Positions 1,977 to 11,855 of a stretch of DNA of 50,288 nucleotides are shown here, in pieces; position 1 is the stretch's first letter, and each line of letters opens with the position of its first letter. The notes beneath the pieces were generated by a model that saw nothing but the letters and a program-made list of their open reading frames with translations, was not told where the DNA came from and did no database searches. Position numbers and translations under genes: made by a program. Source of the stretch: Actinomycetota bacterium (GTDB lineage Bacteria; Actinomycetota; Geothermincolia; Geothermincolales; RBG-13-55-18); assembly GCA_030019255.1 (NCBI GenBank), contig JASEFK010000016.1:1-50288 (forward strand). The letters run 5' to 3'.

Positions 1977-2516
1977 ATGAACATCGGGAGCAGGGAATTG
2001 ACCAGCGGTCGCGCACTTCGAAGCAAGCTGCTTCTCTTCGTCCTTCTCCTGGCCTTCTGGATCGTCCTCACCGCCTCCCTGGCCCTGCATGAACTGGTCA
2101 TGGGCGCGGTATGTGCGGCCTTCGTGGGGACCCTGACCGTCGCCCTTCTGGGTAGGGCCCTCGATCCGTGCATCACCCCCGCGGTTCTCCTCCGCCTCCC
2201 GGTCTTCATGGTGCGGCTGGTGTGGGAGATCATCAAGGCCAACATCGACGTGGCCAAGATAATCATCGATCCGCGCCTGCCCATCGATCCGCGCATCGTG
2301 GAATATCGAACCTATCTTCCCGGGGACCTCCCTCGCACGGTGTTCTCCGACTCCATAACCCTCACTCCGGGAACGGTGACCGTGGAGCTTGAGGGCGACG
2401 TCCTCAACGTGCATTGCCTCTGTCCTTACCACGAGGAAGGACTTGCCGGCCTGGAGGCACTGGTGGCCTGGCTCTTCGGGGTGAAGGGAATGAGTCAGGG
2501 GGAAGAAGATGGATAA
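1977..2516 (+). CDS. mnhE: Na+/H+ antiporter subunit E (MnhE/MbhA-like)
   Basis: A 179-residue membrane protein of the MrpE/MnhE/MbhA family, a small structural subunit of Mrp antiporters and of the ion-translocating half of membrane-bound hydrogenases. Two or three hydrophobic segments occupy residues 17-60 and 70-95. They are followed by the diagnostic cytoplasmic part: NIDVAKIIIDPRLPIDPRIV, then TLTPGTVTVELEGDVLNVHC, both strongly conserved in MrpE. It is the first gene of an uninterrupted run (E, F, G, DUF4040, B, C, D). The ATG at 1977 lacks a clear ribosome-binding site. A TTG at 1998 has GGAG seven bases upstream and would give 172 residues, closer to the family norm, so the start is uncertain. 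The stop overlaps the next gene by 8 bp. Confidence 0.9.
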   Translation: MNIGSRELTSGRALRSKLLLFVLLLAFWIVLTASLALHELVMGAVCAAFVGTLTVALLGRALDPCITPAVLLRLPVFMVRLVWEIIKANIDVAKIIIDPRLPIDPRIVEYRTYLPGDLPRTVFSDSITLTPGTVTVELEGDVLNVHCLCPYHEEGLAGLEALVAWLFGVKGMSQGEEDG

Positions 2517-2781
2517 GTTACTCACCGCCATCGCGCTGGTCATAGGCCTTAACGCCTTCATCTGCCTTTACCGGGCCGCGGTGGGGCCCACCACCCAGGA
2601 CCGGGTGCTGGGGGTGAACATCGTGGGCACCAAGACCTTGGTGGTGGTCGTCCTGGTCACCTATATCCTGGCCGAGAACTACTTCCTGGACGTGGCCATC
2701 GTTTACGCCCTGCTGCTCTTCGTGGTCACCGTGGCCCTCAGCCGTTACCTGGAGGCGGAGGGCTGGAAGGAGGCGGGTTGA
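2509..2781 (+). CDS. mnhF: Na+/H+ antiporter subunit F (MnhF/MbhB-like)
   Basis: A 90-residue protein with three transmembrane helices and the MrpF signature: a first helix running into YRAAVGPTTQDRVLGVNIVG, then hydrophobic segments with a conserved acidic residue (FLDVAIVYALL). MrpF/MbhB is a small structural subunit of the multi-subunit cation/proton antiporter. It overlaps mnhE by 8 bp and abuts mnhG, so translation is probably coupled. Length and order match the MbhA-MbhB-MbhC block. Confidence 0.92.
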   Translation: MDKLLTAIALVIGLNAFICLYRAAVGPTTQDRVLGVNIVGTKTLVVVVLVTYILAENYFLDVAIVYALLLFVVTVALSRYLEAEGWKEAG

Positions 2782-2783
2782 GG

Positions 2784-3110
2784 ATGGCCAGGGATATCGT
2801 GGCCGGCGTCTTTTGCTGCATCGGGACCCTCTTTTTCATCCTGGGAACCACGGGACTTTTGCGTATGCCCGACCTCTTCACCCGCCTGCATCCCTCCACC
2901 AAGTGCGATACCCTGGGGGCCTGCTCGGTGATCCTGGGCATGGCGGTGCACAACGGGTGGTCCTGGGACCTGCTGAAGCTGGTGTTCATCGCCTGTTTCC
3001 TGCTGCTCTCCAGTGCCACCTGCGGGCACGCCATCGGCCGTTCCGCCCTGCGCCGGAACATACCTTACTGGAAGAAAAAGGAAGTGACGGAAGATGGGCA
3101 CGGCGCTTAA
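2784..3110 (+). CDS. mnhG: Na+/H+ antiporter subunit G (MnhG/MbhC-like)
   Basis: A 108-residue protein with three transmembrane helices of the MrpG/MbhC family. The marks are GTLFFILGTTGLLRMPDLFT, then RLHPSTKCDTLGACSVILG, which is the family's diagnostic arginine-rich loop with the Lys/Asp pair. The ATG at 2784 has AGGAGG ten bases upstream; an in-frame TTG at 2778 would overlap mnhF and is also possible. The 3' end overlaps the next gene by 17 bp. Confidence 0.92.
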   Translation: MARDIVAGVFCCIGTLFFILGTTGLLRMPDLFTRLHPSTKCDTLGACSVILGMAVHNGWSWDLLKLVFIACFLLLSSATCGHAIGRSALRRNIPYWKKKEVTEDGHGA

Positions 3111-3339
3111 CCTGGTTCTCATCCTCCTGCTTCTGGCCACCGCCGTCCTGGCGGTTACCGCCAGGGATCTTTTGGCAGCGGTGATCATCTTCTCCGTGTA
3201 CAGCCTCATCATGGCCCTCATGTGGCAGAGGCTGCAAGCTCCCGACCTGGCCCTCACCGAGGCGGCGGTGGGGGCGGGGGTGACCACCGTGCTCTTCGTC
3301 ATCACCATCTTCAAGACCCGGAGGAGGGAGGAGGAATGA
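3094..3339 (+). CDS. DUF4040 / MbhD-like antiporter subunit
   Basis: An 81-residue protein with about three transmembrane helices, matching the MbhD/DUF4040 family. In Mrp antiporters this domain is fused inside the C-terminal part of MrpA; in hydrogenase-type complexes it is a separate gene, as here. Conserved features are AVTARDLLAAVIIFSVYSL and LQAPDLALTEAAVGAGVTTV, the latter with the Asp/Glu pair on the ion path. It overlaps mnhG upstream and its TGA overlaps the ATG of the next gene (ATGA). Confidence 0.9.
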   Translation: MGTALNLVLILLLLATAVLAVTARDLLAAVIIFSVYSLIMALMWQRLQAPDLALTEAAVGAGVTTVLFVITIFKTRRREEE

Positions 3340-4085
3340 AGCGCGTCGCCTCCCTGCTCTTCATCGTCGCCCTGGCGGTACTGCTCCTCTACGTGGTGGC
3401 CGGCATGCCCCCCATGGGGGATCCGGACAATCCTACCGCCACCCACGTCATCCCCCGCTACCTGGAGAGGGCGGAGGAGGAGACCCATACGGTCAACGTG
3501 ATAACTGGGATTATCCTTAATTACCGCGGATACGACACCATGGGGGAGGTGACGGTGATCTTCTGCGCCCTGGCCGCCGTGCTGGCCGTGCTGGGGAGGG
3601 AGAGAAGGGGGGTGATACACGGTTTCGTGGACCGTTCGGAGGTCCCCTCCTCCACCATCGTGAAGACCATGGTGCGCTTCATGGTCCCCTTCATCATCCT
3701 CTTCTCCGTGTATACCATCCTTCACGGCGAGACCTCGCCGGGGGGTGGCTTCCAAGGAGGTGCCGTCATCGGGGGAAGCATGATCATCTTCACCACCATC
3801 TTCGGGCTCTACGAATCCTCGAGGAGGATACCCCTCAAGGTGCGCGCTTCCCTGGAGGGGGCGGCGGTGATGGGCTTCTTCCTGGTGGGGGCCCTGGGGC
3901 TGGTGGGCGGGGGAAATTTCCTGACCTACGCCTGGCCAAGGGTGTCCCGGAGCCTGCACCCCTCGCTGGTGGTGTGGCTGACCGTTCTGGTGGAGGTGGG
4001 TATCGGCCTAGGAGGGGCCATGGTGCTCACCTCCATACTCTTCGCCATGATCCGGGAGGAGGAGGAAATTGCGCCTTCTTCATAA
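3336..4085 (+). CDS. mnhB: Fused MbhE/MnhB-like antiporter subunit
   Basis: A 249-residue membrane protein combining two parts that are separate in hydrogenase operons. Residues 1-90 resemble MbhE (the last piece of MrpA), with VNVITGIILNYRGYDTMGEV as the diagnostic segment. Residues 105-245 are MnhB/MrpB: MVPFIILFSVYTILHGETSP, then GGGFQGGAVIGGS, then two more helices. The Asn/Arg/Asp/Glu set in the first motif and the His-Gly-Glu-x-x-Pro-Gly-Gly-Gly-Phe-Gln-Gly loop are conserved in these families. Start ATG 3336 overlaps the DUF4040 stop, and the end overlaps mnhC by 17 bp. No frameshift separates the parts, so this is a genuine fusion. Confidence 0.88.
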   Translation: MKRVASLLFIVALAVLLLYVVAGMPPMGDPDNPTATHVIPRYLERAEEETHTVNVITGIILNYRGYDTMGEVTVIFCALAAVLAVLGRERRGVIHGFVDRSEVPSSTIVKTMVRFMVPFIILFSVYTILHGETSPGGGFQGGAVIGGSMIIFTTIFGLYESSRRIPLKVRASLEGAAVMGFFLVGALGLVGGGNFLTYAWPRVSRSLHPSLVVWLTVLVEVGIGLGGAMVLTSILFAMIREEEEIAPSS

Positions 4086-4452
4086 CTATCATTACGCGGC
4101 GGCTATGATCCTCTTCTGCTTGGGGCTATATACGGTCATCGTGCGCCGCAACATCATCAAGAAGCTCATCGGCCTGAACATCATGGAGACCTCGGTCTTC
4201 TTCTTCTACATCTCCCTGGGATACCTGGATGGAGGCATCGCTCCCATCCGCACCGGCGGGGCCGACCCCTCCCGCATGGTCAACCCCATCCCCCAGGCCC
4301 TCATCCTCACCGGCATCGTGGTGGCGGTGAGCGTGACCGCCCTTGCCCTGTCCATGGTCATCCTCCTCTACCGCCAGTATGGCACCCTGGACGTGGACCG
4401 GCTCATGCGGGAGGAGGAGCCGGAGGCCGCGGAGAGCGGGAAGGGGGATTGA
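4069..4452 (+). CDS. mnhC: Na+/H+ antiporter subunit C (MnhC/NuoK-like)
   Basis: A 127-residue protein with three helices of the MrpC/MbhG/NuoK family. The segment KKLIGLNIMETSVFFFYISL carries the conserved membrane glutamate. NPIPQALILTGIVVAVSVTA is the family's second signature (the Pro-x-Ala-Leu-x-Leu-Thr-Gly-Ile-Val motif). A TTG start at 4069 sits just after the GGAGGAGGAA segment that ends the previous gene, overlapping it by 17 bp. The acidic tail (EEEPEAAESGKGD) is cytoplasmic. Confidence 0.92.
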   Translation: MRLLHNYHYAAAMILFCLGLYTVIVRRNIIKKLIGLNIMETSVFFFYISLGYLDGGIAPIRTGGADPSRMVNPIPQALILTGIVVAVSVTALALSMVILLYRQYGTLDVDRLMREEEPEAAESGKGD

Positions 4453-4453
4453 G

Positions 4454-5938
4454 TTGGGGGCCTGGAGGCACTTTCCCATCTTCATGATCACCGTGCCCCT
4501 CCTGGGGGCGGTGCTCCTGCCCTTCCTGGGATACGTGAGGGAGAGATGGGTTCCCTACGCCGCCCTCCTTCCCCTGGGGACATCCACCCTGCTGGGGATA
4601 CTTCTCATCGGCCGGATACCTTCCGATGGTTATCTCAGCTATCACATGGGAGGATGGGAGCCGCCCTTCGGCATCGAGATCCGGCTGGACTACGTGGGCC
4701 TGTTCCTGATGCTGGTGGTGTGCGGCATAACCTTTCTGGCCCTGGTATATTCGCGACACTACATCGAAAAAGAGGTCAGCGGCGGACGGCGCACCGCCTA
4801 TTACGTACTGTACCTGCTCATGTCCGGTGCCATGCTGGGTTTCGTGGCCACCGGGGACATCTTCAACCTCTTCGTGTTCATGGAGATCCTGGCCCTCTCC
4901 TCCTATGCCCTGGTGGCCATAACCGGCAACCGCAACGCGGTGCGCGCCGCCTTCAAGTACATCCTCATGGGGGCACCCTCCTCCATCATGGTCCTCCTGG
5001 CCATAGGGTTCCTCTATTCCGTCACCGGGACCCTGAACATGGCCGACCTGGCCGGGCGCATCGCCGAATCGGGTTACACGGAGGTGCTCATCGTCTCCTA
5101 CATCCTCCTGGTGGTGGGATTCGGGGTCAAGGCGGCCCTTTTCCCCCTGCACATGTGGCTCCCCGACGCCCACTCCATCGCCCCCTCGCCCATCAGTGCC
5201 CTCCTCTCCGGGCTCTTGGTGGAGGTATGTGCCTTCGCCTTGGTGCGCATCACCTTCTCCATCTTCACCCTCCGGGCCTCGGACCTGGTGATGGGGACGG
5301 CGGACGCGGTGGGCGTGGCGGCGGCGGCGGCGGTCCTCTACGGGGGAATCATGGCCATCCTGCAGAAGGACCTTAAGATGATGATCGCCTATTCCACGGT
5401 GAGCCACATCGGCTACATATTCCTGGGCCTCACCGCCTTCACTGCGGAGGGGCTGACCGGGGCCATGTACCACATGCTGGATCACGGCCTGGCCAAGGCC
5501 TGCCTGTTTTTGTGTGCCGGAAACTTCATCTACCTGAAGGGATACCGGAGGATAGAGGATCTGAAGGGGGCCTGGAGCCAGATGCCCTGGACCTGCTTCG
5601 CCTTCGCCCTGGCCTCCCTTTCGGTCATCGGCATCCCTCCCACGGCGGGGTTCATCAGCAAATGGTACCTCATCCTGGGGAACGTGGAGGGGGGCAAGTG
5701 GCTGTACGCGGCGGTGCTGCTTGCGGGAAGCATCCTGGCGGCCGTTTACTGCCTCCGGGTCCTTTATTACATGTTTTTCCAGGCGGGTAAGGAGGGCGCC
5801 TGGGAGGAGTACTGGCATGACGCGCCGCCGGCCATGCTGGCGCCGGTCTGGGCACTCTCCCTGGCCACGCTCTTCTTCGGCGTCTTCTCCTCCCTGCTGA
5901 TACCATCGTTGCTCAAGGCTGCGACGTATTTATTATGA
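4454..5938 (+). CDS. mnhD: Proton-conducting antiporter subunit D (MnhD/MbhH/NuoN-like)
   Basis: A 494-residue protein of the NuoL/M/N-MrpA/D antiporter family with about 14 helices. The key membrane residues of the family can be located: Glu144 in FMEILALSSYALV (TM5), Lys226 in GVKAALFPLHMWLPDAH (TM7) and Lys403 in AGFISKWYL (TM12). The second lysine, normally present in the TM8 segment LLSGxxxKxGAY, is replaced by glutamate here (Glu257 in LLSGLLVEVCAF). The other two paralogues in this cluster keep it. The TTG start at 4454 has AGGGGG six bases upstream and lies 1 bp after the mnhC stop; ATG 4484 is an alternative. It completes the E-F-G-DUF4040-B-C-D order. Confidence 0.92.
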   Translation: MGAWRHFPIFMITVPLLGAVLLPFLGYVRERWVPYAALLPLGTSTLLGILLIGRIPSDGYLSYHMGGWEPPFGIEIRLDYVGLFLMLVVCGITFLALVYSRHYIEKEVSGGRRTAYYVLYLLMSGAMLGFVATGDIFNLFVFMEILALSSYALVAITGNRNAVRAAFKYILMGAPSSIMVLLAIGFLYSVTGTLNMADLAGRIAESGYTEVLIVSYILLVVGFGVKAALFPLHMWLPDAHSIAPSPISALLSGLLVEVCAFALVRITFSIFTLRASDLVMGTADAVGVAAAAAVLYGGIMAILQKDLKMMIAYSTVSHIGYIFLGLTAFTAEGLTGAMYHMLDHGLAKACLFLCAGNFIYLKGYRRIEDLKGAWSQMPWTCFAFALASLSVIGIPPTAGFISKWYLILGNVEGGKWLYAAVLLAGSILAAVYCLRVLYYMFFQAGKEGAWEEYWHDAPPAMLAPVWALSLATLFFGVFSSLLIPSLLKAATYLL

Positions 5939-5957
5939 GCGGATAAGGGGGTAGTCG

Positions 5958-7472
5958 ATGCGAGAGAGCACCTTTTCGGTAGTCCCACTGGTAGCCGTTC
6001 TGCTGCCCTGGATTTCGCTGCTGGCCATCCTGGCCTTCCCCAAGCGGGCGGAAAAACTGCGGCTGTGGTTGTGTTTCCTGGGTTCGCTGGCCACCTTCGG
6101 GGTGGTGCTCTCCATACTTCCGGGCATCCTGGACGGCAACACCTACACCATCAAGCTGGCCAGCGTGGTGGAGAACCTGGAGATGCGCCTCACCGTGGAC
6201 ACCCTGGGATATTATTTCGGCCTCATCCTGGCCTTCCTGTGGATGTTGGCCACGGTTTACTCCATCAGCTACATAGACCACAAACACAACCGCTTCTTCG
6301 CCTTCATGGCCCTGTGCGAGTCCTTCATCCTGGGCTGCGCCTTTTCGGCCAACATGTTCACCTACTTCATCTTTTACGAGATGATGACCTTCGGGTCCTA
6401 TCCCCTCATCATCCACGAGGAGACCACCATGGCCCGCCGTGCGGGCTACAAGTACCTGGTTTACGCCATTGCCGCGGGCACGGTGCTCTTCTTCGCCATC
6501 GTGGCCCATTATTTCTGGGGAGACGGGCAGCTGGCGTTCTCTAGGTACGGGGTGCTGAGCCTGGAGATGGCCTCCAAGGCGGCCCTGATGACCGTCTTCT
6601 TCACCTACCTCGCCGGATTCGGCGTCAAGGCGGCCATCATGCCCCTGCACGGATGGGTACCGGACGCCCATCCCGCGGCGCCCTCTCCGGCAAGCGCGCT
6701 GCTCTCGGGCGTCATCCTCAAGGCGGGAGCCTTCGGGATCATTCGGGTGTGCTTCAACGTCTTCGGGGTAGACCTGATGCGGGAGCTGAAGGTCTACCCG
6801 GTGATGGCCGTGCTGGCCTGCATCACCATCGTGGTGGCATCGGTCTTCGCCCTGACCCAGGACAACCTCAAGCGGCGCCTGGCCTACTCCAGCATCGGGC
6901 AGGTCTCCTACATCATCCTGGGGCTGTCCATGCTGGCCCACGACGGGGCCCTGGGCGGGGTTATGCACCTCACCCACCACGCCCTCATGAAGGGTTGCCT
7001 GTTCCTCTGCGCTGGGGTGATCCTGGTGAAGACGGGCAAGAAGAACATCAGTGAGATGGCCGGCATCGGTTACCAGTTGCCCATCACCATGATCTGCTTC
7101 TCGGTTTGCGCCCTGGCCATGATGGGTACGCCGCCCTCGGTAGGGTTCGTTACCAAGTGGCTGCTGGGAAGCGGTTCCCTGGAGGCGGGGCTTCCGGTGT
7201 ACATTGTCGTGCTCCTGGTGAGCGCCCTGCTCAACGCAGCCTATTTCCTGCCCATTATCTACATCGCCTTCTTCCGTTGGGAGGGTGACGAGCTCGACGA
7301 GCACGGGGAGAGACACCATCCCAAGCTGGTCTTCGGCAAGGAGGCCGACCACAAGCTGGTGGTCCCGGTGGTCATCCTGGCCGCCCTGGTGGTCGTCGTG
7401 GGCATCTGGAGCAACGTGCCCGGCTTCCCCTATTCGCTGGTCAGCAAGGTGGTCAACATCATCTTCCGCTGA
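5958..7472 (+). CDS. Second NuoL/M/N-type proton-conducting subunit
   Basis: A 504-residue antiporter-type membrane subunit with about 14 helices, paralogous to the preceding gene. All expected charged residues are present: Glu141 in FYEMMTFGSYPL, Lys224 in GVKAAIMPLHGWVPDAH, Lys255 in LLSGVILKAGAFGIIR, and Lys400 in GFVTKWLLG. HHALMKGCLFLCAG is the typical broken-helix region. It starts 19 bp after mnhD, with GATAAGGGGG-type purines upstream of ATG 5958. Subunits of this kind pump H+ or exchange Na+/H+ in complex I, Mrp and group 4 hydrogenases; the ion cannot be assigned from sequence. Finding a second and third pump beyond the MnhD homologue enlarges the usual seven- or eight-subunit module. 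Confidence 0.9.
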   Translation: MRESTFSVVPLVAVLLPWISLLAILAFPKRAEKLRLWLCFLGSLATFGVVLSILPGILDGNTYTIKLASVVENLEMRLTVDTLGYYFGLILAFLWMLATVYSISYIDHKHNRFFAFMALCESFILGCAFSANMFTYFIFYEMMTFGSYPLIIHEETTMARRAGYKYLVYAIAAGTVLFFAIVAHYFWGDGQLAFSRYGVLSLEMASKAALMTVFFTYLAGFGVKAAIMPLHGWVPDAHPAAPSPASALLSGVILKAGAFGIIRVCFNVFGVDLMRELKVYPVMAVLACITIVVASVFALTQDNLKRRLAYSSIGQVSYIILGLSMLAHDGALGGVMHLTHHALMKGCLFLCAGVILVKTGKKNISEMAGIGYQLPITMICFSVCALAMMGTPPSVGFVTKWLLGSGSLEAGLPVYIVVLLVSALLNAAYFLPIIYIAFFRWEGDELDEHGERHHPKLVFGKEADHKLVVPVVILAALVVVVGIWSNVPGFPYSLVSKVVNIIFR

Positions 7473-7563
7473 GAGGTGAGCTGCCTTGAACCTTTTCGAC
7501 TGCGGAGCCGGAGAGAACCTGGGGGTTATCAACGGGTTTTTCGCTGAGGGGTGAGTTCCGGGA

Positions 7564-9708
7564 GTGCACGAGGAGAAGTTAGCCGTCCTGTCCTTCAGCC
7601 TCTTGCCAGCGCTGGCTTTGCTCCTCCCCCTCCTGGGGGCGGTGGGGGCGGCCGCGGGAGGAGAGAGGAAGCCCCGCTGGCGTAACTGGTCGGCGGTGCT
7701 GAGCACGGGAAGCACGGTGGCGGTGGTGGCTTCCCTCCTGGCGCGAGTGGTGGGGAAAGGTCCGGTCTACTTCGAGCTGGGCTTCCTGCGCCTGGGGGAG
7801 AAGTTCTCCTGTGGGCTGGAGGTGGACGCCGTGGGGGCTTTCTTCGCCTTCTTCGCCTCCATCCTGTGGTTCGCCGCCTCGGTGCACGCCTTCCGGTACA
7901 TGGATCACGAGCACAAGCGTACCCGCTTCTTCCTCTTCATGCTCCTTACCGAGGCCGCCACCCTGGGGGTCTTCATGGTGCAGGATTTTTTCAGCCTTTA
8001 TCTCTTTTTCGAGGCCATGGGCTTTCTGGCCTACCTCCTGGTCATCCATTCCGAGACCCCCCGGGCTCGAGCCGCGGCGGCCAAGTATATAGGCATGACC
8101 GTTATCGGGGGGCTGAGCCTCATCGGGGGCATATTCCTCTACCTGGGGTATGCGGGGACCACTTCTTTCCGGCCCCTCGTGGAGAGCGCCTGGCTCACCG
8201 GTCCCTTCAAGGTGGTGGCCCTCGTCCTGCTCATCGCCGGCTTCGGGGTCAAGGCGGGCATGGTGCCCCTGCACATCTGGTTGCCCGACGCCCATCCCGC
8301 CGCGCCCTCTCCGGCCAGTGCCCTGCTCTCCGGGGTGATGATCAAGGCGGGTGCCTACGGCATCCTGAGGACGGTGCTCAGTTTCCTGCAATCACCGGCA
8401 GCCCACGGTGCTGAGGGGCACGCCGCGGCGGGGCATGGGGCGGAGGGAGCCGTCCACACCGCCGGTGGCCTGGCCGCCGACGTGCGCATGCTGGGGTTCG
8501 CCGTCATCTGGATCGCCGTGGCCACCATGTTCATCGGCATGCTCCTGGCCCTGGTGCAGAGGGACATCAAGCGCACCCTGGCCTATTCCAGCGTCAGCCA
8601 GATGGGCTACATCCTCTTCGGACTGGGATGCCTGGGGTACCTGGGCGCGGAGGGGGCCATGGGCATGGGTGGAAGCCTTTACCATATCATCAACCATGCT
8701 TTCTTCAAGGGCTGTTTCTTCCTAGCCGCGGGTTCCGTCCTCTTCTGTGCCCACGAGCTGGACATGTTCAAGCTGGGCGGACTCTGGAGGCGCATGCCCC
8801 TGACCACGCTCTTCTGGTGTATCGCCGCCCTGGGCATCATGGGCATACCCCTGGGAAACGGGTTCGTCTCCAAGACCCTGCTCCACCACGCCATACTCGA
8901 GTCCCACCACCTGGCGGAGGGCGCCCGCCTGGCCACCGCGGGTTGGGTGAAGGCCGCTGAAATCATGTTCATCATTACCAGCGGCGGTACCATCGGCTAC
9001 ATCACCAAGATGACCTACTACACCTTCTTTCGGAGGCCGGACCCGGAGCACGCCTCCCACCTGGAGCACGTCCGGGAGGCCCCTGGGTGGATGCTGGCCG
9101 GCTCGGGGCTGCTGGCGGCGGGGGTTCTCTTCAACGGGCTTTTCCCGGGCCTGCTCCTGCGGCGGCTGGTGGGACCGGCGGCGGGCACGGTGCCGGGCCT
9201 CGACGCCCACTACGTGGAACACTTGGCCCATACCCCCATCTTCCTGTGGTCCAACATCAGGGAGATCTTCATCCCCTTGGCCATCGGCCTCGGCGTCTTC
9301 GTGCTGGGGGCCTGGCCGGACCTGCTGAAGGTGCGCAGGCGGGGACCGGACCTCTTCCAGTTCCGGCTGCCGCGCTGGCTGGGAGTGGATTTCTGGTACC
9401 TGGCCGCGGCACGGGGTTCCCTGAGACTCCTCTTCTGGGGAAAAAGGACCTACGCGCCGGTGAAGGAGGGCGTTGTCTCCCTGTGCAGGAGGGGTGCCGA
9501 GGCCGCCGTTTACGCGGTGAGGGAGGTTATCTATCCCTCACTGACCGCGCGTCCGGTCTCCTGGGTGAGCCGGCAGGCGATCCAGCTATACGGGAACGCA
9601 CGGAGGGAGCTCTTGCCCCGCATTCGCGAGTACCAGGGGGACATCGCCGTGGGCGCCCTGGTCATAGCCGTATCCCTCACCCTCTTCTTGATCATGCGCC
9701 TGATGTGA
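7564..9708 (+). CDS. Third NuoL-type proton-conducting subunit with long C-terminal tail
   Basis: A 714-residue NuoL/MrpA-type subunit. The antiporter core is intact: Glu150 in FFEAMGFLAYLLV, Lys230 in GVKAGMVPLHIWLPDAHP, Lys261 in LLSGVMIKAGAYGILR, and Lys437 in GFVSKTLLH. Residues about 277-302 form a His/Ala/Gly-rich loop (AAHGAEGHAAAGHGAEGAVH) not usual in the family. After residue about 540 comes an extended tail with a hydrophobic segment near 570-585, a basic amphipathic region (600-690) and a terminal helix ending GALVIAVSLTLFLIMRLM. This could act like the lateral helix plus anchor of NuoL. The next gene encodes a free-standing version of the tail. The start is GTG 7564, with GAGGGGTGAG upstream. 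Confidence 0.9.
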   Translation: MHEEKLAVLSFSLLPALALLLPLLGAVGAAAGGERKPRWRNWSAVLSTGSTVAVVASLLARVVGKGPVYFELGFLRLGEKFSCGLEVDAVGAFFAFFASILWFAASVHAFRYMDHEHKRTRFFLFMLLTEAATLGVFMVQDFFSLYLFFEAMGFLAYLLVIHSETPRARAAAAKYIGMTVIGGLSLIGGIFLYLGYAGTTSFRPLVESAWLTGPFKVVALVLLIAGFGVKAGMVPLHIWLPDAHPAAPSPASALLSGVMIKAGAYGILRTVLSFLQSPAAHGAEGHAAAGHGAEGAVHTAGGLAADVRMLGFAVIWIAVATMFIGMLLALVQRDIKRTLAYSSVSQMGYILFGLGCLGYLGAEGAMGMGGSLYHIINHAFFKGCFFLAAGSVLFCAHELDMFKLGGLWRRMPLTTLFWCIAALGIMGIPLGNGFVSKTLLHHAILESHHLAEGARLATAGWVKAAEIMFIITSGGTIGYITKMTYYTFFRRPDPEHASHLEHVREAPGWMLAGSGLLAAGVLFNGLFPGLLLRRLVGPAAGTVPGLDAHYVEHLAHTPIFLWSNIREIFIPLAIGLGVFVLGAWPDLLKVRRRGPDLFQFRLPRWLGVDFWYLAAARGSLRLLFWGKRTYAPVKEGVVSLCRRGAEAAVYAVREVIYPSLTARPVSWVSRQAIQLYGNARRELLPRIREYQGDIAVGALVIAVSLTLFLIMRLM

Positions 9709-9712
9709 AAAA

Positions 9713-10153
9713 ATGACAATGGTGGAGGAGACCATGCGGGCCATGTTGGGATTGACGGCGACCAACAACCTGGGGAGGGACCTTTTCGCGGCCTTCATCG
9801 CCGCCCTGGCCGGGATGGCGGTGCTCCTCTACGCCGCGGCTTCCGATCTCTTCGACCTGAAGTTCTTCAAGTTCGACCCCTTTTCCCTGCGCTATCCCCG
9901 GGAGGCGCGTATCGAGTACTGGTACGTGCGGGCGGCCAGGAGATTTCAAGCCTTCCTGGCCAGCGGGGGATGGAGTTATGCCAAATTCAAGAAGAGGGCC
10001 AAGGTGGCCTTCAAGAGAGACTGGAGGAGGTTCCGGCGAGAGACGCGCCGCATGCTGCCCGAGGCCGCCCGGCGGTTGAACCGGGACATCGCCCTGGGCG
10101 CCCTGGCCATAGCCGTGGCCCTGGTGGCCTTGCTGATCATGAGGCTGGTCTGA
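9713..10153 (+). CDS. Small membrane protein, stand-alone paralogue of the tail of the preceding subunit
   Basis: A 146-residue protein of no named family that I recognise. Residues 20-40 form a hydrophobic segment, 50-120 a strongly basic amphipathic stretch (FKKRAKVAFKRDWRRFRRET), and 124-146 a terminal helix. Its layout and sequence parallel the C-terminal region of the 714-residue neighbour: the last 18 residues are GALAIAVALVALLIMRLV against GALVIAVSLTLFLIMRLM, and upstream WYVRAARR matches WYLAAARG. It starts 4 bp after the neighbour's stop, so it is almost certainly cotranslated. A role as a peripheral helix or spacer in the same complex is inferred, not shown. The ATG at 9713 follows a weak ribosome-binding site; ATG 9719 is also possible. 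Confidence 0.75.
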   Translation: MTMVEETMRAMLGLTATNNLGRDLFAAFIAALAGMAVLLYAAASDLFDLKFFKFDPFSLRYPREARIEYWYVRAARRFQAFLASGGWSYAKFKKRAKVAFKRDWRRFRRETRRMLPEAARRLNRDIALGALAIAVALVALLIMRLV

Positions 10154-10277
10154 ACGGCTGAAGAAATAAATCGCCGGTCGCTTCCAGAGATCATTTCATT
10201 AATTGCCATGAGGGTGGCCTGAAGGGCCGAGGAAGGAGATTCGGGGGACGAAGAAAGGGATGACGTGGAGGGTGATC

Positions 10278-10511
10278 ATGGGCAAGAGAGTCGCGGTTCT
10301 GGTTCTCGCGGTCGTCCTGCTGCTCGTGGCCGGCCTTTCCGTGGCGCAGGCGGAGGGGAAGGAGGCCGGAGAGGGCGAAGGAGGGGGCTCGGTAAAGCTG
10401 GTGGTGACCATAGCCGCCATCTGGCTGGCCATCCTGGCCGCGGTGATCACCGTGGTGGTGGTCACCCGGCGCAAGGCGGGAGAGGAAGACCGGCAGAGCA
10501 AGGAAGGATGA
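10278..10511 (+). CDS. Small membrane protein with signal-like helix, unknown function
   Basis: A 77-residue protein, not recognised. It has an N-terminal hydrophobic helix with a signal-peptide look (basic MGKR, then VAVLVLAVVLLLVAGLSV, then AQA as a possible cleavage site), a short acidic/glycine-rich linker (EGKEAGEGEGGGS), and a second transmembrane helix (residues 40-61) ending in a basic stop-transfer (TRRKAGEEDRQSKEG). If the signal is cleaved, the mature product is a tiny single-pass protein. ATG 10278 is preferred over ATG 10260 because GGAGGG lies five bases upstream. Its place after the antiporter module suggests an accessory subunit. Confidence 0.6.
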   Translation: MGKRVAVLVLAVVLLLVAGLSVAQAEGKEAGEGEGGGSVKLVVTIAAIWLAILAAVITVVVVTRRKAGEEDRQSKEG

Positions 10512-10517
10512 GGGGGT

Positions 10518-10621
10518 TAAACCTTTGTAGTTCCGCATTAAATGGCTTGACCGGAATGGTTTAAGCAATACCCGCATAAGGGACTGAACCTTTACAGCTG
10601 TGGATTCAACGGCTTGAGCCC
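10518..10621. repeat. Intergenic imperfect direct repeat with inverted repeat
   Basis: Between two small membrane-protein genes, AACCTTT...GGCTTGA occurs twice, at 10521-10553 and 10588-10620. Both copies are about 33 bp with roughly 70% identity and start AACCTTT. A 7-bp inverted repeat, TTAAACC (10518-10524) and GGTTTAA (10559-10565), brackets the first copy. There is no T-tract of a terminator. This could be an operator or a relic of local duplication. Confidence 0.45.
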
Positions 10622-10665
10622 AGTGTGATACGGTTGGAAGGTTAGATCCGAGGGAGGTATAGGAA

Positions 10666-11094
10666 ATGAACGACAAGCAATCCGGCGCGGCGCGATGGCT
10701 GACCGCCCTGGCGGTGGTCTTCATACCCCTGTCCATCATCATCCTCATCTCCGGTTCCTGGCTGGCCAATTTCACCTCCAACCAGTGGACGCGCTACCTC
10801 CTCTTCGCCTCCTGGGTAACCCTGACCCTCTCCATCGTCCTGGGGGTGGTGAACATGGTGGGCCGCGCTGGAGACGGCAGCCCTTCTGCGGGAACGGAGG
10901 AGAGCGAAGGAGAGGGGGGAGGTGAGGGGGAAACCGTATCCGGCGCAGCCCCCTCGGGCATGGACATGGAGAGATACAGGGTGGAACAGGCTCTGCTCCT
11001 GGGCCAGGCCACGGCCTTTCTCCTGGGCCTCTTCCTCTACGTGGCTTTCATCTCCTGGATGGTCCTCCCCAAGATCGGCTTGGCCGGCCTGTGA
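10666..11094 (+). CDS. Three-helix membrane protein, unknown function
   Basis: A 142-residue protein, not recognised as a family. Hydrophobic segments lie at about residues 12-33, 43-65 and 112-135. Helices 2 and 3 are separated by a low-complexity acidic loop of Gly/Glu/Ser (residues 68-95). The ATG at 10666 has GGGAGG upstream (GGGAGGTATAGGAA). It lies 150 bp after the preceding small gene and 26 bp before the UPF0280 gene, so it may belong to either unit. Orientation and membrane character link it loosely to the ion-transport module. Confidence 0.6.
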   Translation: MNDKQSGAARWLTALAVVFIPLSIIILISGSWLANFTSNQWTRYLLFASWVTLTLSIVLGVVNMVGRAGDGSPSAGTEESEGEGGGEGETVSGAAPSGMDMERYRVEQALLLGQATAFLLGLFLYVAFISWMVLPKIGLAGL

Positions 11095-11120: not shown

Positions 11121-11855
11121 ATGAGGGAATATATCCACCGCTTTTACCGCCGGCAAATGTGGGCGGAAGGCCTGGTCTCCTTTCAGGTCAGGATAAAGGA
11201 GAGCGACCTTTTCATCTGGGCGGTGCGCGATCTGCGCCGGGAGGCCCGTGACTCGCTACTGCGGCATCGCTCCCTGTTGGAGGAGTTCATGGCCCGCCAG
11301 CCCCCCTTCGCCACCACCTTCCTCCCTTACCCGGTTCCCGAGGACGCCCCGGGTATCGTGCGGTGCATGGCGGAGGCGGCGGCCCGCGCGGGCGTGGGTC
11401 CCATGGCCGCCGTGGCGGGTGCGGTGGCCGAGATGGTGGGCCGGGACCTCCTGCCCCTGTCGCCGGAACTGATGGTGGAGAACGGCGGGGATATCTTTCT
11501 CCGTTCGAGGATGGAGAGGCGCATAGGCGTCTTCGCCGGGGAATCCCCCTTCAGCGGGCGCCTGGCCCTGGTGGTGGGACCCACGCCTCCCGAAGGGCTG
11601 GGGATATGCACTTCCTCGGCCACCGTGGGGCCGTCGTACAGCGCCGGGGCAGCCGACGCCGCCCTGGTGGTGGCGGAAACCGCCAGCCTGGCTGACGCTG
11701 CCGCCACCGCCCTGGGAAACCGGGTCAAGTCTCCCGAAGACATGGAGGAGGCTCTGGCATACGTGGCCGGCCTGGAAGGGGTATCAGGCTGCCTGGTCAT
11801 CATGGGGGACAGGCTGGGGGTCAGGGGAGACCTCCGGCTGGAAAAAACCGGATAG
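11121..11855 (+). CDS. UPF0280 family protein (ApbE-superfamily fold)
   Basis: A 244-residue protein of the UPF0280 family, distantly related to ApbE, the flavin transferase that attaches FMN to membrane subunits of ion pumps. Recognisable segments are GPMAAVAGAVAEMVGRDLL, ENGGDIFLRS (the Asn-Gly-Gly-Asp motif), LGICTSSATVGPSYSAGAAD and the late ALGNRVKSPED. The length is normal for the family. Biochemical function of UPF0280 proteins is not settled; similarity to ApbE and the location just downstream of an ion-translocating module make a flavin-related role worth testing, but this is inference. The start ATG 11121 overlaps no gene. Confidence 0.85.
   Translation: MREYIHRFYRRQMWAEGLVSFQVRIKESDLFIWAVRDLRREARDSLLRHRSLLEEFMARQPPFATTFLPYPVPEDAPGIVRCMAEAAARAGVGPMAAVAGAVAEMVGRDLLPLSPELMVENGGDIFLRSRMERRIGVFAGESPFSGRLALVVGPTPPEGLGICTSSATVGPSYSAGAADAALVVAETASLADAAATALGNRVKSPEDMEEALAYVAGLEGVSGCLVIMGDRLGVRGDLRLEKTG

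Follow-up and report, generated by a model that had tools for sequence, protein, structure and literature searches.

A probable stand-alone group 3 Mrp cation/proton antiporter with three pump subunits in an actinobacterial genome

The window, i.e., the whole stretch of 50,288 nucleotides that was analyzed, belongs to a Ca. Solincola-type actinobacterial MAG that is 98.8% complete (all sequences of this analysis are from MAGs). It starts at a contig end (C16:1), inside an acyl-CoA ligase gene, and contains the following genes:

1977..2516, plus strand: MrpE/MbhA homologue, 179 aa (Pfam MNHE, E 1e-31; closest solved relative MBS MbsA, 6u8y_A)
2509..2781, plus strand: MrpF/MbhB homologue, 90 aa (Pfam MrpF_PhaF; MbsB, 6u8y_B)
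2778..3110, plus strand: MrpG/MbhC homologue, 110 aa (Pfam PhaG_MnhG_YufB; MbsC, 6u8y_C)
3094..3339, plus strand: MbhD/DUF4040 subunit, 81 aa (Pfam MbhD; MbsD/MbhD relatives)
3336..4085, plus strand: MbhE-MnhB fusion, 249 aa (Pfam MbhE and MnhB; closest solved relative MbsE, 6u8y_E, which is built in the same way)
4069..4452, plus strand: MrpC/MbhG/NuoK-type subunit, 127 aa (Pfam Oxidored_q2; MbsG, 6u8y_G, E 2e-30)
4454..5938, plus strand: pump 1 (D1), MrpD/MbhH type, 494 aa (Proton_antipo_M, E 3e-65)
5958..7472, plus strand: pump 2 (D2), antiporter type, 504 aa (Proton_antipo_M)
7564..9708, plus strand: pump 3 (D3), MrpA-N/NuoL-like, 714 aa (Proton_antipo_M)
9713..10153, plus strand: stand-alone lateral-helix (tail) protein, 146 aa (similar to the end of pump 3)
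10260..10511, plus strand: small accessory membrane protein, signal/TM type, 83 aa (position kept in the family)
10666..11094, plus strand: small accessory membrane protein, 142 aa
11121..11855, plus strand: UPF0280-type protein, 244 aa (NCBIfam NF003323, 281 bits against a cut-off of 271)

The genes from 1977 to 10153 overlap or almost touch; promoter and terminator scans gave little beyond the shuffled background. Pfam and NCBIfam searches confirm the subunit identities and agree with the order MnhE-F-G-DUF4040-(MbhE+MnhB)-C-D read in the first-pass annotation, all frames of which are found where it placed them, including the two additional NuoL/M-type pumps, the tail protein and the two small membrane proteins that extend the run to 11094. 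Neither small membrane protein has a family match (none that is significant for the first), although the second has a homologue in one sister family too (L069/L104). The UPF0280-type gene directly follows the module throughout the family.

The small subunits correspond to the cation path of Mrp complexes. The aspartate D31 of the MrpF homologue pairs with D35 of Anoxybacillus flavithermus MrpF and is kept in 13/13 sequences, as is the LTPGT proline of the MrpE ferredoxin-like domain. The DUF4040 subunit corresponds to the initial section of the C-terminal domain of MrpA, and its E56 equals E706 of MrpA, just as D66/E70 of the MbhE part (numbered from codon 2) equal D792/E796 (14/14 in both cases). 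Together with P131 of the E subunit and H38 of the G subunit, these residues are family-invariant and agree with the Na+-path residues named for Mrp (PMC7419157); overall, the counterparts of MrpA-C, F, E and G keep the Na+-path residues of the solved Mrp complexes. The exception is the MrpC-type subunit, in which a NIMET motif, also found in most other free-standing loci, takes the place of the histidine pair, and E40, T41 and F44 are invariant within the family (14/14 sequences). Because the cation-binding histidines H37/H40 are replaced by T41/F44, with E40 beside them, the predicted cation site is MBS-like and unlike that of canonical Mrp.

In pump 1, which matches MbhH (6cfw_H) with E 4e-70, the TM5 Glu and the TM7 and TM12 Lys are present; pump 2 has MbhH and MbsH' as relatives, and its key Glu and Lys residues are invariant among 16 sequences. 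Across all three pumps, the TM5 Glu and the Lys of TM7, TM11 and TM12 are kept. The AlphaFold2 model of pump 3 (pTM 0.79) has MrpA and NuoL as top PDB matches, and its C-terminal extension consists of a terminal TM, a 47-residue lateral helix, modeled with low confidence (pLDDT about 40), and a final TM. In the tree of pumps, D1, D2 and D3 each fall into a clean clade of their own, and the branching runs parallel in all three, suggesting that they were inherited jointly.

For most of its length, the tail protein can be aligned to D3 residues ~568-714 (29% identity, E 2e-11), and from this similarity it appears to be a second copy of the pump 3 end in an MbhI-like layout. It has no Pfam match, its profile yields only chance matches in the PDB and its AlphaFold model is poor (pTM 0.27). 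It is kept in family loci with intact flanks. Given that pump 3 has a modeled fold of the MrpA-N/NuoL kind, lateral helix included, and that the tail protein copies this end, MrpA is split rather than missing, its parts being pump 3 with the lateral helix, DUF4040 and the MbhE domain. The earlier statement that the locus lacks a long MrpA subunit is thus literally true, but the MrpA parts are present as separate genes.

A search of the same lineage recovered the same gene run in all 15 family genomes. NuoB, NuoD or NuoH neighbors are absent wherever the flanks are visible, and in none of the class loci with visible flanks do mbhI-N or nuo genes carry the run further. In the sister families f4 and f5, it lies in unrelated neighborhoods, again without NuoB, NuoD or NuoH neighbors. 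Relatives in other actinobacterial classes are free-standing loci with four or five pumps, compared to three in Geothermincolia, and throughout this three-, four- and five-pump series the channel residues are intact in nearly all pumps. Some distant matches in the phylum adjoin long ORFs that on visual inspection resemble DabA (L132 2-3871, L131).

Possible redox partners were sought with PF00346, PF01058, PF00146 and PF00361 in the host genome and with PF00146 and PF00346 in the family genomes. NuoH (PF00146) was detected neither in the host nor in any of the 15 family genomes. Genome-wide, the host's Proton_antipo_M (PF00361) matches are the three ORFs of the module only, and no further antiporter-model protein was recognized. 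Two NuoB-type (PF01058) matches in the host are small subunits of NiFe hydrogenases in other gene contexts, and the PF00346 match belongs to a separate, degenerate operon on contig C3 that is discussed below. The identity of the subunits, the intact key residues, the conserved operon and the lack of a redox partner in the operon and the genome are observed.

Group 3 Mrp systems are defined by the lack of a single long mrpA, with mrpD sometimes present in multiple copies (PMC8415708). Here, homologues of MrpB, C, D, E, F and G are encoded in one operon with several mrpD-type pumps and no single long mrpA, the TM5 Glu and the TM7 and TM12 Lys are intact, and neither the operon nor the DNA directly flanking it in relatives encodes a redox module. 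The locus differs from group 1 and 2 Mrp in having neither an MrpA that joins its N and C domains in one long chain nor MrpC H37/H40, from MBH, MBS and Ehr in that no NuoB/C/D/H-like redox module is linked to the ion module, and from respiratory complex I in the family-wide absence of NuoH. On these sequence grounds, the cluster is very probably a group 3 stand-alone Mrp that couples proton movement to that of a monovalent cation in the opposite direction, Na+ being the likeliest. Of the two possibilities raised in the first-pass annotation, the free-standing antiporter with three channels is thereby well supported, and no characterized complex turned up that has the same composition.

The identity of the cation is where another reading fares best. 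A stand-alone Mrp moving K+ or another cation instead of Na+ would accommodate the MrpC ligands that differ from those of Na+/H+ Mrp complexes, and some Mrp complexes are indeed K+ or Ca2+ antiporters (PMC5703873). However, the remaining Na+-path residues are kept, and the same MrpC glutamate occurs in MBS, a reported Na+ pump (PMC8415708), so that we regard this reading as rather unlikely.

The other possibility of the first-pass annotation, coupling to a redox module encoded elsewhere, is disfavored. Under this reading, the module would be the ion-pumping half of a redox complex that receives electrons from a formate dehydrogenase or from an operon on contig C3. Most family members encode a selenocysteine formate dehydrogenase (NuoE/F/G-like) in the same orientation, a few kilobases upstream of the run; since the window starts at the contig end, these genes would lie outside it. 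FDH-Ehr complexes have also been proposed elsewhere (PMC6349859). The linkage is broken, though, in one member of the same family (G008) and in f4 and f5, and the formate dehydrogenase is set aside as a partner because the link breaks in these other lineages; as the run sits in unrelated neighborhoods in the sister families, the association is probably only synteny. The C3 operon, the only candidate remnant of a group 4 hydrogenase-like complex, has divergent, degenerate NuoH/antiporter/NuoD-like genes; NuoB and the NiFe ligands are missing, a pump subunit of its own is present, and the distribution is patchy, its NuoD-like gene not being found in G001, G002, G009 and G080 (96-99% complete, all with the module). 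With NuoH missing from every family genome as well, a redox half of this kind is very improbable.

That the cluster belongs to a DAB-like inorganic carbon uptake system, with the NuoL-like subunit working with DabA, is hardly credible: apart from the DabA-like ORFs beside some distant phylum matches, inspection of the window and of the family and class loci revealed no DabA-like gene, and the cluster has the complete set of Mrp cation-path subunits, which DAB does not need. The degenerate hydrogenase-like operon of the lineage could hint that the cluster, too, is a decayed, non-functional remnant of an Mbh-type hydrogenase. This is extremely improbable, as the frames are intact, the catalytic residues are invariant and the synteny is complete across the divergence of the family.

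Under the preferred reading of a group 3 stand-alone Mrp, we propose that all subunits assemble into one membrane complex that would swap a monovalent cation, presumably Na+, for protons and transfer no electrons. E, F, G, DUF4040, MbhE-MnhB and C would form the cation path, and D1, D2 and the MrpA-N/NuoL-like D3, in a row, three channels for protons. This row would be clamped by the D3 lateral helix and, in like manner, by the tail protein as a further clamp of that type. Cation movement would be driven by the proton-motive force, or the reverse. In the host, which encodes Rnf-type genes and two V/A-type ATPases, the complex would interconvert the gradient of Rnf-type complexes with that used by the ATPases.

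To our knowledge, the number of protons moved per antiporter-type subunit of complex I and Mrp, and the role of the lateral helix, are unsettled in the field. A redox-free antiporter that occurs with three, four or five pumps would let pump number be altered with no electron transfer involved. We suggest, tentatively, that evolution has varied pump number in redox-free Mrp, extra pumps changing the H+/cation ratio and the longer row being held by a lateral helix in two copies; if true, the series would be a natural one for measuring the contribution of each antiporter-type subunit in Mrp and complex I. Furthermore, an MBS-like ion module would here operate apart from its redox half, and the bacterium concerned has Rnf-type genes and no complex I.

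Among known systems, the group 1 and 2 Mrp complexes (A. flavithermus 6z16, B. pseudofirmus 7qru, Dietzia 7d3u) share all subunit domains and most Na+-path residues with the cluster, and pump 3 models closest to MrpA, but they have one long MrpA, two pumps and the MrpC histidine pair. Aphanothece halophytica mrpCD1D2EFGAB, a Na+/H+ antiporter in E. coli (Fukaya et al., 2009, as summarized in PMC5703873), is by that description likewise free-standing and group 3, with three antiporter-type subunits (A, D1, D2), whereas its gene order differs, mrpA is retained and the summary reports no separate lateral-helix protein. The comparison with Mbh drawn in the first-pass annotation holds, in that Pyrococcus furiosus MBH (6cfw) shares the mbhA-H order, MbhH is the best solved sequence relative of pumps 1, 2 and 3, and MbhI, as is the case for the tail protein, provides a lateral helix from a gene of its own; MBH differs in its NiFe hydrogenase module and single pump. 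Two systems are closer. The stand-alone Mrp of P. furiosus (Pf1147-53, mrpEFGBB'CD), also group 3 (PMC8415708), shares the order E-F-G-(MbhD/E/F domains)-C-D and has neither an energy-input module nor a one-gene MrpA; it has a single pump and fuses MbhD+E, whereas the cluster has three pumps, one of which bears a lateral helix, an additional lateral-helix protein and fused MbhE+F. P. furiosus MBS (6u8y), the closest solved relative for E, F, G, DUF4040, MbhE-MnhB and C, has the same MbhE-F fusion and the same C-subunit glutamate, but carries the redox module MbsJ-N, of which the window has nothing, and has MbsH and MbsH' as its pumps (TM15-16 being present in MbsH'), one fewer than the cluster. 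Group 3 Mrp, to which the cluster very probably belongs, is an already named class; new are the MBS-like build with three pumps, the duplicated lateral helix and the free-standing relatives with four or five pumps.

The reading frames proposed in the first-pass annotation were all found at the coordinates it gave, on one strand and mostly with overlaps of a few bases. The Pfam and NCBIfam models identify in this run MnhE, MrpF, MnhG, MbhD (DUF4040), an MbhE-MnhB fusion, a NuoK/MrpC-type subunit and three Proton_antipo_M proteins, with E-values from 1e-15 to 1e-65, and the gene order is kept in all family loci with intact flanks; given these E-values and the kept order, the run is far beyond chance. 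Neither the tail protein (146 aa) nor either of the small membrane proteins matched a known family. In loci L069 and L104 of a sister family, the genes from DUF4040 to pump 3 are present, MrpE, F and G are absent, and the C and MbhE-MnhB subunits are divergent. In Dehalococcoidia bin423 (locus L068, 7339-8154), the gene preceding MrpC starts SecF-like and matches MnhB only in part, a sign of either fused genes or faulty assembly. A single MAG (G010) carries two full module copies with flanks (L037 on contig C8 and L038 on C25), probably reflecting two mixed strains or species.

Sequence searches place pump 1 nearest to MbhH and MrpD, and MbhH is also the first match of pumps 2 and 3. The best fold matches of the pump 3 model (pTM 0.79) are Bacillus MrpA and NuoL; past the pump domain, the model shows a TM helix at 562-587, then a long helix at 608-654 with a low pLDDT of about 40, and further C-terminal helices that end with the last TM. 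Because the tail protein aligns with this C-terminal end of pump 3 (29% identity, E 2e-11), it is predicted to be a second lateral-helix piece. The separate MbhI of MBH has a similar layout and is compared in PMC8415708 with the TM15-16 end of MbsH'. All three pumps retain the Glu of TM5 and the Lys of TM7, TM11 and TM12, and F, DUF4040, MbhE, E and G retain the residues of the Mrp cation path named in PMC7419157. The histidines of MrpC are replaced by the motif NIMET, with a glutamate, which does not vary within the family and also occurs in most other free-standing loci and in MBS.

The first-pass annotation saw no redox module, and this is borne out at the genome level, all genomes compared being MAGs. 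The window makes up the entire contig C16; the genome it belongs to has 2.93 Mb in 43 contigs and is 98.8% complete. NuoH was found neither in this genome nor in any of the 15 family genomes, all of which have the module pumps (in 14 of them pump 3 is full-length or nearly so), and no nuoB, nuoD or nuoH follows the E-to-D3 run in the sister families (L105-L109, L124, L125), where the run is surrounded by quite different genes. The Proton_antipo_M model detects in the own genome only the three ORFs of the window; it misses a very divergent pump-like protein on contig C3. Both NuoB-type proteins of this genome belong to NiFe hydrogenases as their small subunits; one is followed by its large subunit and RnfC/RnfD-like genes, and the other is of the short, soluble type.

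The window begins within an acyl-CoA ligase gene, so that whatever precedes this gene is missing from the contig. In most relatives (the named ones, found with pump 2 as query, are Ca. Solincola and Ca. Geothermincola MAGs of Actinomycetota), a formate dehydrogenase (NuoF + NuoG-FdhA type) lies ahead of this ligase, with a TGA (selenocysteine) read through within the catalytic motif CARLUHSS; one neighbouring-family genome has NuoE and NuoF genes at this position. Downstream of the module are a UPF0280-type gene, then ligA and gat genes. Given that the formate dehydrogenase link is missing in the sister families and in G008 of the window's own family (L035), it is best read as local synteny, comparable to ligA and gatCA. 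The UPF0280-type gene (11121-11855), ApbE family-like by eye, lies 3' of the module in the family and one sister family.

The other candidate partner is an operon elsewhere in the genome:
C3 171,423-175,869 (G000:C3:~171420-175869; locus read L026, 9421-13869): three genes, whose products have 329 aa, 541 aa (antiporter-like) and 481 aa (weakly matching NuoD).
Profile searches found its NuoD-like gene in 18 of the 31 class genomes and not in G001, G002, G009 or G080 (96-99% complete, all with the module); the operon is therefore rejected as an obligatory partner. In the sister family f4, the operon has a still recognisable NuoH, together with NuoB-like and NuoCD-like subunits that match hydrogenases weakly, and in the window's family the hydrogenase ligands are lost. 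It appears to be a group 4 hydrogenase-like complex that is losing NuoB and the metal ligands in the latter. Operons of this type are also found at L149 (4953-9103), L148, L150, L151 and L152; they encode divergent proteins resembling NuoH, antiporters and NuoD, are joined in sister families by a NuoB-like gene, and have no adjacent ferredoxin-like subunit.

Pump-2-like matches at E <= 1e-60 occur in 86 of 396 genomes sampled phylum-wide, some of them from complex I or other systems. The fully read free-standing runs have three pumps in class relatives, four in L111, L112, L117, L121 and L122, and five in two loci, with the key residues present in nearly all pumps:
L114 4494-13639: free-standing Mrp run with five pumps, TM5 Glu and TM7/TM11/TM12 Lys intact in all five.
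L128 7560-17062: free-standing Mrp run with five pumps, the same residues intact in all five.
In the tree, pumps 1, 2 and 3 form separate clades, which branch in parallel for the window's class and a single Dehalococcoidia genome. The fourth pump branches from inside the pump 2 clade, and the fifth clusters with additional pumps from complex I loci in the same phylum. At L113 (8574-12721), the pump-2-type gene is present as two near-identical tandem copies, accompanied by a membrane protein of 165 aa; the pair reflects either recent duplication or the assembly.

Besides one Rnf-like cluster, the own genome has RnfC/RnfD-like genes at two further sites, behind hydrogenase or formate dehydrogenase genes (gene names were read from the sequences by eye, except for PF03116 matches). 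At these sites, the RnfC/RnfD-like pair lies directly 3' of a NiFe hydrogenase (L156, 3168-8914, contig C4) and of a formate dehydrogenase (L157, 7106-13863, contig C14), which possibly form Rnf-coupled complexes. Two different V/A-type ATPase operons are present on contig C2 (L153, L154), with rotor subunits of 77 aa (Q...ET) and 170 aa; the Q...ET pattern is often found in Na+ types. We infer the module's ion and transport direction, as well as a physiological role between Rnf and the ATPase, where Mrp would keep the Na+ gradient, the H+ gradient and the cytoplasmic pH in balance.

Group 3 Mrp systems are defined by the lack of mrpA and the presence of mrpD, at times in multiple copies, and the stand-alone group 3 Mrp of P. 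furiosus, a Na+ user, has the order E-F-G-B-B'-C-D (PMC8415708). The three-pump Mrp of Aphanothece (mrpCD1D2EFGAB) is reported as a working Na+/H+ antiporter (PMC5703873). Given this definition and these precedents, the window encodes a known kind of Mrp in a new build that combines MBS-like small subunits, three pumps and, as predicted, a doubled lateral helix.
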